A DNA stretch of 64,000 nt from Emticicia agri. Lineage in GTDB: Bacteria > Bacteroidota > Bacteroidia > Cytophagales > Spirosomataceae. The stretch spans positions 124,001 to 188,000 of the forward strand of contig NZ_SEWF01000001.1 in NCBI RefSeq assembly GCF_004168285.1. The letters run 5' to 3'. This document shows positions 14,954 to 35,425 of the stretch, piece after piece. The first letter of the stretch is position 1, and the number at the start of each line of letters is the position of its first letter. The notes beneath the pieces were generated by a model, which worked only from the letters and a program-made list of their open reading frames with translations, did not search any database and was not told where the DNA came from. The translations under genes were made by a program, and so were the position numbers.

Positions 14954-16153
14954 TTACATTCTTTCAAAAATCGTAGCAATTCCCATGCCTCCGCCAATAC
15001 AAAGACTTACCAGACCAACACCTTTATCAGCGCGTTCCATTTCATCAATCAATGCTGTAGAAAGAATAGCTCCGGTTGCGCCAAGCGGATGCCCTAAAGC
15101 AATAGCTCCCCCATTCACATTTACTTTGCTATGGTCTGCACCTAATTTATCCATAAACAGCATCGGTATGGCGGCAAAGGCTTCATTTATTTCAAAAATA
15201 TCAATATCACTCAAGCTCATTCCGGCTTTTTTCAATACCTTTTGTGTAGCAGGAATCGGGCCTGTCAGCATAATAGTAGGCTCTGACCCTACTATAGCAA
15301 AAGCCTTGATTCTGGCTCGTGGTTTTAAGCCTAATTTTTGCCCCATCTCTTTATTACCTATCAACAAAGCCCCTGCTCCGTCGCTAATTTGTGAGGAATT
15401 TCCGGCATGATGAACGTGGTTGATACTTACCAGATGATTATATTTCATCAAAGCCAGAGCATCGAGTCCCATACTGCCCAACATTTCAAACGCAGGTTTG
15501 AGTTTGCTTAGAGATTCAACCGTAGTTTCTGGTCTGATACCCTCATCTCTATCCAGCACTGTTAGTCCTATTTCGTCTTTTACTGCTACCATTGATTTAT
15601 AAAAGCCATTCTTTTGCGCTTCTACTGCCCGGCGAACAGATTCGGCGGCATAAGTATCTACATTATTTCTTGAATAGCCATATTTGGTGGCAATCAGATC
15701 GGCGGAAATACCCTGTGGTACAAGTTTATGCTGTGCTATCAGTTGCGGATTCATCATCAAAGCGCCTCCGTCTGAACCCATAGGTACTCGTGACATAGAT
15801 TCTACTCCGCCCGCTACCAATAAATCTACCTGCCCAGACATTACATAGGCTGCTGCCATATTAATAGCCTCTAAACCTGATGAACAGAAACGATTGACCT
15901 GAACCCCTGCCACAGTCTGGGCATAGCCCGAATCTAATACTGCGGCACGGGCAATATCGCCCCCTTGCTCACCTATTGGTGATACACAACCCACAATTAC
16001 ATCGTCGATAAGACTGGTATCTAAATTGTTACGTTCTTTTAAAGATTTTAAAACGGTTGAGAGTAATTGCACAGGCTGTACATCGTGTAAGGCACCATCT
16101 GATTTGCCACGCCCCCGGGGAGTCCGCATGGCATCGTATATATATGCTTCCAT
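14954..16153 (-). CDS. Acetyl-CoA C-acyltransferase (thiolase)
   Basis: A 399-residue thiolase that cleaves 3-ketoacyl-CoA or condenses acetyl-CoA. The nucleophilic cysteine is C90 in VNRFCSSGLEAINMA. The catalytic histidine lies in GGAIALGHPLGATGA and the second cysteine in SLCIGGGMG. This is full family length. The promoter upstream on the minus strand has a well-placed TTG and TAGTTTTG. A perfect TATGCTTGCATA palindrome lies at the expected transcription start, the same site found at the beta-oxidation promoter at 30.9 kb. That suggests a catabolic (beta-oxidation) role rather than biosynthesis. Confidence 0.95.
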   Translation of the reverse strand: MEAYIYDAMRTPRGRGKSDGALHDVQPVQLLSTVLKSLKERNNLDTSLIDDVIVGCVSPIGEQGGDIARAAVLDSGYAQTVAGVQVNRFCSSGLEAINMAAAYVMSGQVDLLVAGGVESMSRVPMGSDGGALMMNPQLIAQHKLVPQGISADLIATKYGYSRNNVDTYAAESVRRAVEAQKNGFYKSMVAVKDEIGLTVLDRDEGIRPETTVESLSKLKPAFEMLGSMGLDALALMKYNHLVSINHVHHAGNSSQISDGAGALLIGNKEMGQKLGLKPRARIKAFAIVGSEPTIMLTGPIPATQKVLKKAGMSLSDIDIFEINEAFAAIPMLFMDKLGADHSKVNVNGGAIALGHPLGATGAILSTALIDEMERADKGVGLVSLCIGGGMGIATIFERM

Positions 16154-16184: not shown

Positions 16185-16200
16185 GGTATGCTTGCATACC
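16185..16200. promoter_or_regulatory. Palindromic operator at the thiolase promoter
   Basis: GGTATGCTTGCATACC is a perfect 7+2+7 palindrome. It lies just downstream of the predicted transcription start (about 16202) of the minus-strand thiolase gene. Its 12 bp core TATGCTTGCATA recurs twice at 30903-30914 and 30946-30957. Confidence 0.75.
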
Positions 16201-16208
16201 TCCTCTGA

Positions 16209-16239
16209 CAAAACTACGCAATAGTTTAATTTGATGCAA
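16209..16239 (-). promoter_or_regulatory. Thiolase promoter (TTG-N20-TAGTTTTG)
   Basis: On the minus strand, TTG (complement of 16237-16239) is followed after 20 bp by TAGTTTTG (complement of 16209-16216). This fits the Bacteroidota consensus of TTG and TAnnTTTG. The -33 TTG lies inside TGCTTGCAT (complement of 16234-16242), which repeats the core of the operator at 16185-16200. Confidence 0.7.
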
Positions 16240-16264
16240 GCACAGAAAATATTACCTTTGCTAT

Positions 16265-30900: not shown

Positions 30901-30914
30901 AGTATGCTTGCATA
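30901..30914. promoter_or_regulatory. Operator site 1 over the -33 element
   Basis: AGTATGCTTGCATA contains the palindrome TATGCTTGCATA (30903-30914). The -33 TTG of the promoter (30908-30910) lies inside it. Confidence 0.75.
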
Positions 30915-30937
30915 ATATTTTCTTTACTGTATCTTTG
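30908..30937 (+). promoter_or_regulatory. Beta-oxidation block promoter (TTG-N19-TATCTTTG)
   Basis: TTG at 30908-30910 and TATCTTTG at 30930-30937 are separated by 19 bp, matching the Bacteroidota consensus. The start site would be near 30944, 80 bp before the DUF4442 gene. Confidence 0.75.
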
Positions 30938-30944
30938 TCCGATA

Positions 30945-30960
30945 ATATGCTTGCATACTA
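30945..30960. promoter_or_regulatory. Operator site 2 at the transcription start
   Basis: Second copy of the palindrome TATGCTTGCATA (30946-30957). It lies 43 bp from site 1 and directly after the expected start of transcription, typical of a repressor site. Confidence 0.75.
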
Positions 30961-31024: not shown

Positions 31025-31513
31025 ATGGAATATAACAACACCCTTAACCGAAACCTTGCAAAGGTGCAGAAAATGCCAGCTTTTCTGCAAAATTGGTTGC
31101 GTGATTACTCCATTGGGAAATTCGTTAAATTTGTTGGTACTGCTGGTATTCATTTTGAAAAAATGACCTGCCACGAGGTCGTAATTACACTTCCAAACAA
31201 AACTAAAGTTCAGAACCACATCGGGCAGATACATGCTGCTGCTACCACGCTGTTAGCTGAAACGGCTACGGGTATGGTAGTGGGTATGAATATCCCCGAC
31301 AACAAATTACCTTTGATGAAAAATCTCTCCGTAAAATTCATCAAGCGGAGCCAGGGACAACAAAAAGCAGTAGCCACTTTAACTGAGCAGCAAATTAGTC
31401 AGATTCGTGAAACAGATAAAGGCGATGTAAGCGTAGCCGTAAAAATTACAGACGAAACGGAAGAAGAAGTTATTGTGGCGGAGATGAATTGGGCGTGGGT
31501 ATTGAAGAAGTAG
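31025..31513 (+). CDS. DUF4442 hotdog-fold protein (possible acyl-CoA thioesterase)
   Basis: A 162-residue protein with a single hotdog fold of the DUF4442/PaaI-like type (NHIGQIHAAATTLLAETATG is the central helix region). Such proteins bind acyl-CoA or acyl thioesters and some hydrolyse them; the substrate here is unknown. It is the first gene behind the operator-controlled promoter. It lies 245 bp ahead of the FadN-like gene, with a repeat element in between, so co-transcription is possible but not certain. Confidence 0.8.
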   Translation: MEYNNTLNRNLAKVQKMPAFLQNWLRDYSIGKFVKFVGTAGIHFEKMTCHEVVITLPNKTKVQNHIGQIHAAATTLLAETATGMVVGMNIPDNKLPLMKNLSVKFIKRSQGQQKAVATLTEQQISQIRETDKGDVSVAVKITDETEEEVIVAEMNWAWVLKK

Positions 31514-31758: not shown

Positions 31759-34167
31759 ATGAATCGTAGTATAAAAAAAGTAACTGTTTTAGGTGCGGGT
31801 ATTATGGGTAGTCGTATTGCCTTGCACTTTGCTAATATTGGAGTAGAAGTACTGCTACTCGACATGGTACCCAAAGAACCGAATGATGCCGAAAAAGCCA
31901 AAGGCCTTGATACTACGCATCCGGCAGTACGCAATAGAATCGTTAATGAATTGTTTCAGGCGGCTGTAAAAGCCAGCCCATCACCTGTTTTTAGTCCGCA
32001 GTCGGTTACCCGTGTAAAATTGGGCAATTTCGATGATGATATGACTAAAATCAAAGATTGCGACTGGATTATAGAAGTAGTAGTTGAGCGTCTGGACATC
32101 AAAAAACTGATTTACGAGAAAGTAGAGCAATTCCGCAAACCGGGTACACTCATTACCTCCAACACTTCGGGTATTCCTATCCACCTGATGGCAGAAGGAC
32201 GTTCAGAAGATTTTCAGAAGCATTTCTGCGGTACTCACTTCTTTAACCCGCCGCGTTATCTGCGCTTATTAGAGATTATTCCAACACCTCAGACAGACCC
32301 TGCTATTGTTGACTTCCTGATGCACTATGGCGATTTATATTTAGGCAAAACAACCGTATTGTGTAAAGACACTCCTGCTTTTATTGCCAATCGCTTGGGA
32401 ATATATGCGATGGTGCAAACTATCAGAGTAGCCGAAGAAATGGGTTTAACGGTAGAAGAAGTAGATAAACTCACAGGCCCGGTAGCGGGTCGTCCTAAAT
32501 CGGGTACCTTCCGTTTGTCTGATGTAGTAGGGTTGGATACAACTGTAAATGTATGCAATAACTTATCAAAAGTATTGGTTAACGACGAGTCGAAAGATGC
32601 TTTCCAACTGCCGCCAGTGATGGCTAAACTAATGGAAAACCAATGGCTCGGAGATAAAACCGGACAGGGATTCTACAAAAAAACCAAAGACGAAAAAGGT
32701 CAGACAGTTATTCTGGCTTTAGACCTGAAAACGTTTGAGTATAAACCTTCACAAAAAGTAAAATTTGCTACGCTTGAAGGTACCAAGAGTATTGATAATT
32801 TGAAGAAACGCTTTCCGGTGCTTTTAGCAGGCAAAGACAATGCAGGTGAATTTTATAGACGCACGTTTGCTGATTTCTTCCGCTATGCTACCAATCGTAT
32901 TCCTGAAATTTCTGACGAACTATATAGAATAGATTCAGCTATCTGTGCAGGCTTTGGTTGGGAATTAGGTCTTTTTGAAACATGGGATGCCATTGGTGTA
33001 AAACCAATGCTGAAAATCATGGAAGACCTGAATCTGAAACCTGCCGCATGGGTGTATGAAATGGTGGAAGCAGGCAATGAAACTTTCTACAAAGTAGAAG
33101 GTGGCAAGAAAAAATACTATGATATTCCAACGAAGTCTTATAAAGTAATCCCGGGCACTGAGTCGTTTATTATTTTAGATAATCTTCGTCAGACCAATGT
33201 TATCTGGAAAAATGCAGGTTCTACTATATTCGACTTAGGCGATGGTATTGCAGGAGTTGAGTTTCACTCAAAAATGAACACCTTTGGTGCAGAAGTAGTA
33301 GAAGGCTTGAATAAGGCTTATGCCATTGCAGAGAAGGATTTCAGAGGCCTGGTAGTAGGAAACGACTCAAACGAAGCGTTTTCAGCAGGGGCAAACTTAG
33401 CCATGCTATTCATGTTTGCCATTGAGCAGGAATATGACGAAATCAACATGATGATTGCCCAGTTTCAGCAAACTATGATGCGTGCCAGATACTCATCTGT
33501 ACCTGTGGTAACGGCTGTTCATAGTCTGGCTTTAGGTGGTGGTTGTGAGTTGAATCTTCATGCAGATAGAGTTTTAGCTCATGCAGAAACTTATATGGGT
33601 CTGGTAGAATTAGGCGTAGGTCTGATTCCTGCCGGAGGGGGCACTAAAGAAATGGCGGTTCGTTGCTCGGATATGTATCATACAGGCGATACTGAATTGA
33701 ACATTCTTCAATCTGCTTTCATGAACATTGCTCAGGCTAAAGTTTCAACTTCAGCACAAGAGGCTTTTGATATGAATTACCTCAAAACAGATAAGGACAG
33801 AATCGTGTTGAATCGCAGTCGTCTCATTGCAGAGGCCAAAGAAGAAGCTATCAAACTGGCAGAAGATGGGTACACGCAACCGAAACAACGTACCGATATA
33901 AAAGTACAGGGTAAAACCGGAATCGCACTTTTTAAAGCCGGAATTACAGGTATGCTGATGGGCAGATACATTACTGAGCATGATGCTAAAATTGCCGATA
34001 AATTAGCTTATGTGATCTGTGGGGGCGATTTAAGTTATCCGCAGCTTGTTTCAGAGCAATATCTTTTAGACCTTGAAAGAGAAGCATTCCTTTCGTTGAC
34101 AGGTGAAAAGAAAACAATGGAGCGTATGCAAGGACTATTGAGTGGCGGGAAACCTCCAAGAAACTAA
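31759..34167 (+). CDS. fadN: FadN-like 3-hydroxyacyl-CoA dehydrogenase/enoyl-CoA hydratase
   Basis: An 802-residue bifunctional beta-oxidation enzyme. The N-terminal NAD-binding domain starts VTVLGAGIMGSRIALHFA at 8-25, with the 3-hydroxyacyl-CoA dehydrogenase region to about 410. A crotonase (enoyl-CoA hydratase) domain occupies about 490-690 with GGGCELNLHADRVL and LVELGVGLIPAGGG; each contains one of the two catalytic glutamates. The domain order is the reverse of E. coli FadB and matches Bacillus FadN (YusL). It makes 3-ketoacyl-CoA for the thiolase encoded next, 79 bp downstream. No acyl-CoA dehydrogenase lies beside it. Confidence 0.93.
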   Translation: MNRSIKKVTVLGAGIMGSRIALHFANIGVEVLLLDMVPKEPNDAEKAKGLDTTHPAVRNRIVNELFQAAVKASPSPVFSPQSVTRVKLGNFDDDMTKIKDCDWIIEVVVERLDIKKLIYEKVEQFRKPGTLITSNTSGIPIHLMAEGRSEDFQKHFCGTHFFNPPRYLRLLEIIPTPQTDPAIVDFLMHYGDLYLGKTTVLCKDTPAFIANRLGIYAMVQTIRVAEEMGLTVEEVDKLTGPVAGRPKSGTFRLSDVVGLDTTVNVCNNLSKVLVNDESKDAFQLPPVMAKLMENQWLGDKTGQGFYKKTKDEKGQTVILALDLKTFEYKPSQKVKFATLEGTKSIDNLKKRFPVLLAGKDNAGEFYRRTFADFFRYATNRIPEISDELYRIDSAICAGFGWELGLFETWDAIGVKPMLKIMEDLNLKPAAWVYEMVEAGNETFYKVEGGKKKYYDIPTKSYKVIPGTESFIILDNLRQTNVIWKNAGSTIFDLGDGIAGVEFHSKMNTFGAEVVEGLNKAYAIAEKDFRGLVVGNDSNEAFSAGANLAMLFMFAIEQEYDEINMMIAQFQQTMMRARYSSVPVVTAVHSLALGGGCELNLHADRVLAHAETYMGLVELGVGLIPAGGGTKEMAVRCSDMYHTGDTELNILQSAFMNIAQAKVSTSAQEAFDMNYLKTDKDRIVLNRSRLIAEAKEEAIKLAEDGYTQPKQRTDIKVQGKTGIALFKAGITGMLMGRYITEHDAKIADKLAYVICGGDLSYPQLVSEQYLLDLEREAFLSLTGEKKTMERMQGLLSGGKPPRN

Positions 34168-34246: not shown

Positions 34247-35425
34247 ATGAATGCATATATAGTCGCCGGCTACCGTAGTGCAGTCGGCAAAGCACCCAAA
34301 GGAGTATTCCGCTTTACCCGCCCCGACGATTTAGCGGCAGAGGTTATCAAACATCTGATGGCAAGTGTACCTAATTTAGACCCTGCCCGTGTGGAAGATG
34401 TGATTGTAGGCAATGCCGTGCCGGAAGCCGAGCAAGGTATGCAAATGGCACGCTATATTTCATTACTGGCATTGGGCAAAAGTGTGCCGGGCGTAACCGT
34501 GAACCGTTATTGTGGCTCGGGCGTAGAAACTATTGCAATGGCAGCCGCTAAAATACATGCCGGAATGGCCGATTGTATTGTGGCCGGTGGCACAGAATCG
34601 ATGTCATTAGTGCCAACAATGGGTTGGAAAACAGCTTTGAATTATAACCTCGCTTCTACTCATCCTGATTATTATATTGGCATGGGTTTAACTGCCGAAC
34701 AGGTAGCCCAGCAATTCGGTATCAGCCGTGAAGAGCAGGATTTATTTTCTTATAACTCTCATAAAAAAGCCTTAGCCGCACAGGCAGAAGGAAAATTTGA
34801 TGGCGAAATTGTGCCAATAAAAGTACAGGAAACATTCTTTGACCCAGCTTCTGGTAAAAAGAAAACCAAAGAATATACAGTAACCAAAGACGAAGGCCCA
34901 CGGGCAGATACAAGTATAGAGGCTTTGGCTAAGTTAAAACCAGTATTTACAATGGGTGGAAGCGTAACCGCCGGAAACTCTTCGCAAACGTCTGATGGTG
35001 CCGCTTTTGTGATTGTAATGTCTGAGAAAATGGTAAATGAATTAGGTTTGAAACCTATTGCCCGTATGATGGCCTATGCTTCGGCAGGGGTTGAACCACG
35101 TATTATGGGTATTGGCCCCGTTGCGGCTATTCCGGTAGCACTGAAACAGGCAGGTTTGAAGCAGGACGATATTGATGTCATTGAATTGAACGAAGCCTTT
35201 GCGGCGCAGGCATTAGCCGTTATCAAGGAATTAGGTTTAGATGCCAATAAAATCAATCCTAATGGTGGTGCCATAGCATTAGGTCATGCTTTAGGCTCAA
35301 CCGGAGGCAGATTATCTGTTCAGGTATTGAACGAACTTCGTCGCCAGAATAAAAAATACGGCATGGTAACTGCCTGTGTAGGTGGCGGACAAGGTGTGGC
35401 AGGTATCTATGAGTTTCTAAACTAA
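34247..35425 (+). CDS. fadA: FadA-like acetyl-CoA C-acyltransferase (thiolase)
   Basis: A 392-residue thiolase that completes beta-oxidation by splitting 3-ketoacyl-CoA. The nucleophilic cysteine is C89 in TVNRYCGSG. The catalytic histidine is in GGAIALGHALGSTGG and the second cysteine in TACVGGGQG. It follows the FadN-like gene by 79 bp and is followed by a terminator at 35464, so it likely ends that operon. It is a second thiolase besides the one at 14954-16153, and both are linked by the same operator motif. Confidence 0.95.
   Translation: MNAYIVAGYRSAVGKAPKGVFRFTRPDDLAAEVIKHLMASVPNLDPARVEDVIVGNAVPEAEQGMQMARYISLLALGKSVPGVTVNRYCGSGVETIAMAAAKIHAGMADCIVAGGTESMSLVPTMGWKTALNYNLASTHPDYYIGMGLTAEQVAQQFGISREEQDLFSYNSHKKALAAQAEGKFDGEIVPIKVQETFFDPASGKKKTKEYTVTKDEGPRADTSIEALAKLKPVFTMGGSVTAGNSSQTSDGAAFVIVMSEKMVNELGLKPIARMMAYASAGVEPRIMGIGPVAAIPVALKQAGLKQDDIDVIELNEAFAAQALAVIKELGLDANKINPNGGAIALGHALGSTGGRLSVQVLNELRRQNKKYGMVTACVGGGQGVAGIYEFLN

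Follow-up and report, generated by a model that had tools for sequence, protein, structure and literature searches.

The genome of Emticicia agri carries two identical words around the promoter of a block of fatty-acid degradation genes, which raises the question of what regulator would read these words, how it would act on the promoter and how far the arrangement extends to other genes and other bacteria. The window referred to below is the whole stretch of 64,000 nucleotides that was analysed.

Two paired promoters in the window

The preliminary description of the window had pointed to two identical palindromes around a consensus promoter, one over the -33 TTG and the other just past the expected start, with hotdog, FadN-like and thiolase genes downstream. 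Inspection bore this out: both copies of TATGCTTGCATA were exact and lay 43 bp apart, the promoter TTG-N19-TATCTTTG was present with its TTG inside the first copy, the second copy followed the predicted transcription start, and the identities of the three genes were supported by their Pfam domains (Table 1). The form TAnnTTTG is known as the promoter element of Bacteroidota. The term palindrome held for the arms of the inverted repeat (TATGC/GCATA) and not in the strict sense, because the 2-bp centre reads TT on one strand and AA on the other. When up to two mismatches were allowed, the window contained 13 matches to TATGCTTGCATA relative to a shuffle mean of 9.57, and 19 of 100 shuffles reached 13; this window-wide count was thus not significant and was discarded as evidence of enrichment.

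The promoter of a second thiolase gene in the window repeated the paired plan, with the degenerate operator TGTGCTTGCATC, TTG-N20-TAGTTTTG and an exact operator at a spacing of 46 bp. A divergent MFS transporter gene has its own TTG-N19-TACCTTTG at 16231-16260, over the degenerate operator that it has in common with the thiolase.

Table 1. Positions of operators, promoter elements and genes at the two paired promoters of the window.
Feature	Position	Strand	Details
Acetyl-CoA C-acetyltransferase (thiolase)	14954..16153	-	NF006090, 2.5e-191; probably also in the regulon
Third exact operator	16187..16198	-	Downstream member of the pair at the second thiolase promoter; 34 bp from the gene start
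-7 element TAGTTTTG	16209..16216	-	20 bp after the TTG within the degenerate operator
Degenerate upstream operator TGTGCTTGCATC	16233..16244	-	2 mismatches; 46 bp from the exact operator
Operator 1, TATGCTTGCATA	30903..30914	+	Exact match; holds the -33 TTG (30908-30910)
-7 element TATCTTTG	30930..30937	+	19 bp downstream of the TTG
Operator 2, TATGCTTGCATA	30946..30957	+	Exact match; just 3' of the expected transcription start
Hotdog-fold (DUF4442) protein	31025..31513	+	Pfam PF14539, 6.1e-27; first gene 3' of the pair
FadN-like 3-hydroxyacyl-CoA dehydrogenase/enoyl-CoA hydratase	31759..34167	+	PF02737, PF00725, PF00378
FadA-like thiolase	34247..35425	+	PF00108, PF02803

Sites across the Emticicia genome

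The word had been expected to recur in 5' regions of acyl-CoA genes, and this was the case. In the whole genome (6.65 Mb, 174 contigs), exact TATGCTTGCATA occurred 12 times relative to no occurrence of the reversed pattern used as a control. Markov models of order 1-3, fitted to 341 kb of window and fetched loci in which the sites themselves were present, predicted 0.8-1.9 copies. With any centre allowed (TATGCNNGCATA), there were 21 places cf. 3 in the control and 6.6-9.7 expected from the Markov models. Extension of the pattern to 18 bp, with 3 mismatches allowed, gave a count hardly above the control (120 vs 108).

Random spread over coding regions did not describe these sites, as 11 of the 12 exact copies were at gene 5' ends, six of them at beta-oxidation genes and two at EtfD-like Fe-S genes. 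The remaining copy (C39:4906) lies inside a coding frame of 831 aa, which is contrary evidence, and the copy on C33 touches a frame start that is probably over-extended. Exact sites preceded the second thiolase, hotdog-fadN-fadA (two sites), a CCG-domain Fe-S protein and a 4Fe-4S membrane protein (one each), FadE, SCP2 together with an acyl-CoA dehydrogenase, a separate acyl-CoA dehydrogenase and a protein of the fatty-acid-hydroxylase family. The nine TATGCNNGCATA places with other centres comprised three in coding frames, one on C24 and five that were intergenic, the latter belonging to ETF-beta, an enoyl-CoA hydratase, a second FadE operator, a MarR gene and an uncharacterised 462-aa protein. 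An AMP-binding enzyme (synthetase) was preceded by a one-mismatch site only.

Two other loci carry exact operators. One is located 12 bp before the start of a gene for a 158-aa protein without a Pfam match (L012:1525-2001), nucleotidyltransferase-like by our reading of its sequence, and the other lies between divergent genes for a DUF3089 protein and a TonB-dependent receptor (L037:2214-6602), a pair that perhaps serves lipid release and uptake. Neither locus is obviously concerned with beta-oxidation, which counts against the reading of the sites as a beta-oxidation regulon.

A MarR gene with the site in its own promoter

The regulator had been predicted to be of the TetR, GntR or MarR type and to be encoded outside the window, with a copy of the word near its gene. 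The TetR_N and MarR_2 profiles, the latter being the one model used for MarR, gave 8 and 16 hits, respectively (12 of the MarR_2 hits above cut-off). By comparison of coordinates, the promoter of just one of these 24 genes, G000:C23:70028-70477, coincides with a TATGCNNGCATA place: TATGCCTGCATA is found upstream of the gene and is followed by TACATTTG. The product of this gene contains a MarR domain (PF01047, 5.6e-12, above cut-off). This MarR protein is very probably the regulator of the sites. The AlphaFold model of an orthologue that is 97% identical (L079) had a pLDDT of 89.8, and its top Foldseek matches were MarR structures, including MarR-DNA and CouR-CoA structures, at sequence identities of 16-21%. 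A TetR regulator was rejected as a candidate, since none of the eight TetR_N genes had a site by the same comparison.

We examined 48 marR loci of named genomes, the closest of which were from Emticicia (94-97% identity); one weak Clostridia hit and one locus cut at the gene were left out, giving 46 assessable loci. In 33 of these an exact site lay no more than 162 bp upstream of marR; the 13 loci that lacked it, 9 of them from Runella, are contrary evidence. Downstream of marR and on the same strand, fadN was found in 21 of 47 named loci, close by in 15 and across a gap of 524-729 bp, which could give room for a small gene, in 6; fadE took this place in two named loci. Among the named loci, those of Emticicia and Runella showed no fadN next to marR, and for Emticicia, the genus of the window, this too speaks against the link. 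All nine Runella loci (L088, L089, L091-L094, L096-L098) kept MarR, none had the exact promoter site and seven had a one-mismatch form; thus, the operator may have drifted in this genus.

The linkage extended beyond the family. MarR was hit in 73 of 395 genomes of the phylum, and 30 loci from the 69 non-family genomes with a hit were read (the best-scoring 26 and 4 with paired sites). In all 30, fadN lay 27-206 bp downstream of marR, and the region upstream of marR carried the exact site (26 loci) or a one-mismatch form (4 loci). Paired sites occurred in 9 of the 395 genomes, three of which belong to the family, and all nine had MarR; no control pairs were found, and none of the 322 phylum genomes without a MarR hit had a pair. 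The six non-family pairs all lay directly before marR and were 29-37 bp apart, a layout that differs from that of the family.

Paired promoters in related genomes

Paired sites 28-58 bp apart were sought in 150 family genomes from 36 genera and were found in 102 genomes and 26 genera, with no control pairs; these are counts over related genomes and therefore not of independent events. Among the pairs listed, 74 were read (30 + 44 loci) out of a hand-summed 126. Genes followed 72 of the 74, namely fadE (54), other acyl-CoA dehydrogenases (6) and hotdog or fadN (12), and the other two pairs ran off contigs.

Spacing in the 74 pairs was confined to 42-51 bp, and helical phase was absent in the 72 that could be oriented (R = 0.069). 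The centre was TT in 64 of 72 upstream operators cf. 20 of 72 downstream operators, and of the 66 matches to TAnnTTT(G/A) behind a TT-centred upstream TTG, 54 were at 19-21 bp. The upstream centre and this promoter spacing together place the -33 TTG inside the operator, and the centre of the upstream operator seems to be held by the promoter. Between the paired sites, conservation was limited by eye to the promoter element.

MarR was present in 148 of the 150 family genomes, and its presence or absence inside the family was therefore set aside as a test, being nearly uninformative. Of the two genomes without a hit, G092 had no pair and G129 had one, which is contrary evidence that perhaps reflects an assembly gap. 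Also contrary, sites were not above control in some family genomes with MarR (e.g. G083, 2 vs 8 in the control).

All 37 sites were read in genomes of three other genera (G021, G017 and G030), a picture that is flattered because these genomes were chosen for control counts of 0. In G021, sites were found at a fadE pair, a hotdog-fadN pair, Fer4, CCG, an acyl-CoA dehydrogenase, marR, ETF-beta, a TonB-receptor-like gene and one uncharacterised gene, with five more in coding frames. Those of G017 belonged to a fadE pair, Fer4, thiolase, marR-fadN and ETF-beta, with one in a frame and one that was assigned to no gene, and those of G030 to ETF-beta, fadN, marR-fadE and an acyl-CoA dehydrogenase, with 9 of 13 in predicted frames, a further contrary observation.

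A possible split EtfD among the Fe-S proteins

A profile search found no Fer4_ETF_QO domain in the Emticicia genome. The two Fe-S proteins with exact sites are a CCG protein of 264 aa (L004:1581-2375; C1:199894) and a Fer4 protein of 442 aa with four TM-like stretches (L007:1479-2807; C17). The ligands of clusters D1-D4 have been described for mycobacterial EtfD (PMC13083937), and by eye corresponding residues at matching short spacings could be picked out in the CCG and Fer4 proteins (C30, C65, C102, H104, C105, C157, C192, C193, C231 and C234), including the cysteines of EtfD's unusual linear cluster. By this ligand spacing the two proteins resemble a split EtfD: EtfD is a single chain that joins the membrane domain to the Fe-S and CCG domains, whereas here two separate genes are involved. 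PMC13083937 gives example phyla with the linear-cluster motif, and Bacteroidota is unnamed there ('Bacteroid', 0 occurrences).

Proposed mechanism and alternatives

We hold it highly probable, judging from site positions, enrichment, conservation and linkage, that a MarR-family repressor of beta-oxidation uses the words as operators; it would act by occlusion and would also regulate itself. MarR dimers would bind TATGCNNGCATA. Two of them would sit at the hotdog-fadN-fadA promoter, the first over the -33 TTG, itself part of the operator, and the second over the transcription start, keeping RNA polymerase off. The repressor would limit expression of its own gene and would probably be released by an acyl-CoA or fatty acid; the acyl-CoA is suggested by analogy with Bacillus subtilis FadR, which has an overlapping core regulon. 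The earlier proposal, in which a TetR-, GntR- or MarR-type regulator encoded outside the window occludes the promoter, fits both the sites at acyl-CoA genes and the linkage with marR.

That another regulator (e.g. of the GntR or TetR type) binds the sites, with the MarR gene merely a target, is unlikely. A site before marR marks a likely target rather than a binder, and the regulator search covered TetR_N and, for MarR, the one model MarR_2; however, non-family pairs occur only before marR and in none of the 322 genomes without MarR, and by coordinates no site coincides with any of the 8 TetR_N genes or the 15 other MarR_2 genes. The 12-bp layout is moreover similar to that of the MarR-family consensus of SlyA, TTAGCAAGCTAA (PMC5797941). 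The preliminary description had added 'perhaps with looping', and cooperation of two dimers across the promoter through looping or phase-dependent contact could be imagined from the two exact-arm pairs of the Emticicia genome, both 43 bp apart or about four helical turns. The 42-51 bp range, the phase coherence of 0.069 and the 29-37 bp pairs before marR in other families leave looping unsupported and favour occlusion, making such cooperation quite improbable.

Activation is known for some MarR proteins. An activator is nevertheless very unlikely here, because the two operators lie over the -33 element and over the expected start region, respectively, which are positions for blocking the polymerase. 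Chance or a mobile repeat can hardly be credited: the word is short and its 13 two-mismatch matches in the window are ordinary, but the control gave 0 matches relative to 12 and no pairs in 150 + 395 genomes, and by eye the sequence between sites is unconserved apart from the promoter element. Chance as the origin was ruled out by the reversed-pattern controls.

Relation to known systems

FabT, which responds to acyl-ACP and controls fatty-acid synthesis, and CouR (p-coumaroyl-CoA), which controls the use of aromatic acids, have the MarR fold in common with the candidate. Both were among its Foldseek matches, which were 16-21% identical, and the title of the CouR structure names a bound acyl-CoA. 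Escherichia coli FadR, in contrast, belongs to the GntR family. The FadR regulon of B. subtilis, as given in PMC4525379, contains fadN, fadA, fadE, ETF, acyl-CoA dehydrogenases and a FadF/EtfD-type Fe-S protein, and this core is common to both systems, with sites here preceding fadN/fadA/fadE, ETF and FadF-type genes. B. subtilis FadR is a TetR protein, its regulon includes an acyl-CoA synthetase that here has a one-mismatch site only, and its operator, -33 overlap and paired layout appear to differ from those described above. The SlyA operator is likewise a 12-bp inverted repeat with 5-bp arms, a 2-bp centre and a GC-NN-GC core, and PMC5797941 lists one such site 22 bp ahead of the slyA gene; the outer bases of the SlyA operator differ, and SlyA antagonises H-NS at other genes.

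A repressor regulon for fatty-acid degradation is of a known kind, and the putative variant built on MarR would be new. Among the literature matches listed, with preprints and subscription papers outside the search, titles and abstract starts gave no MarR regulator of fatty-acid degradation in Bacteroidota, and the motif letters appeared in three papers, all under unrelated titles.

Significance for fatty-acid oxidation

The analysis names a likely regulator, its operator and its targets for the control of fatty-acid oxidation, for which no earlier description in these bacteria was found in the literature searched, and it accounts for the bases that promoter and operator have in common. We lean, by a narrow balance, towards the broader view in which a MarR repressor, spread over this family and neighbouring ones of the class, would control every step between acyl-CoA and the quinone pool, with a split EtfD in place of ETF-QO, through an operator merged with the Bacteroidota -33 element. 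The two Fe-S proteins gain a possible role as the missing ETF:quinone link.
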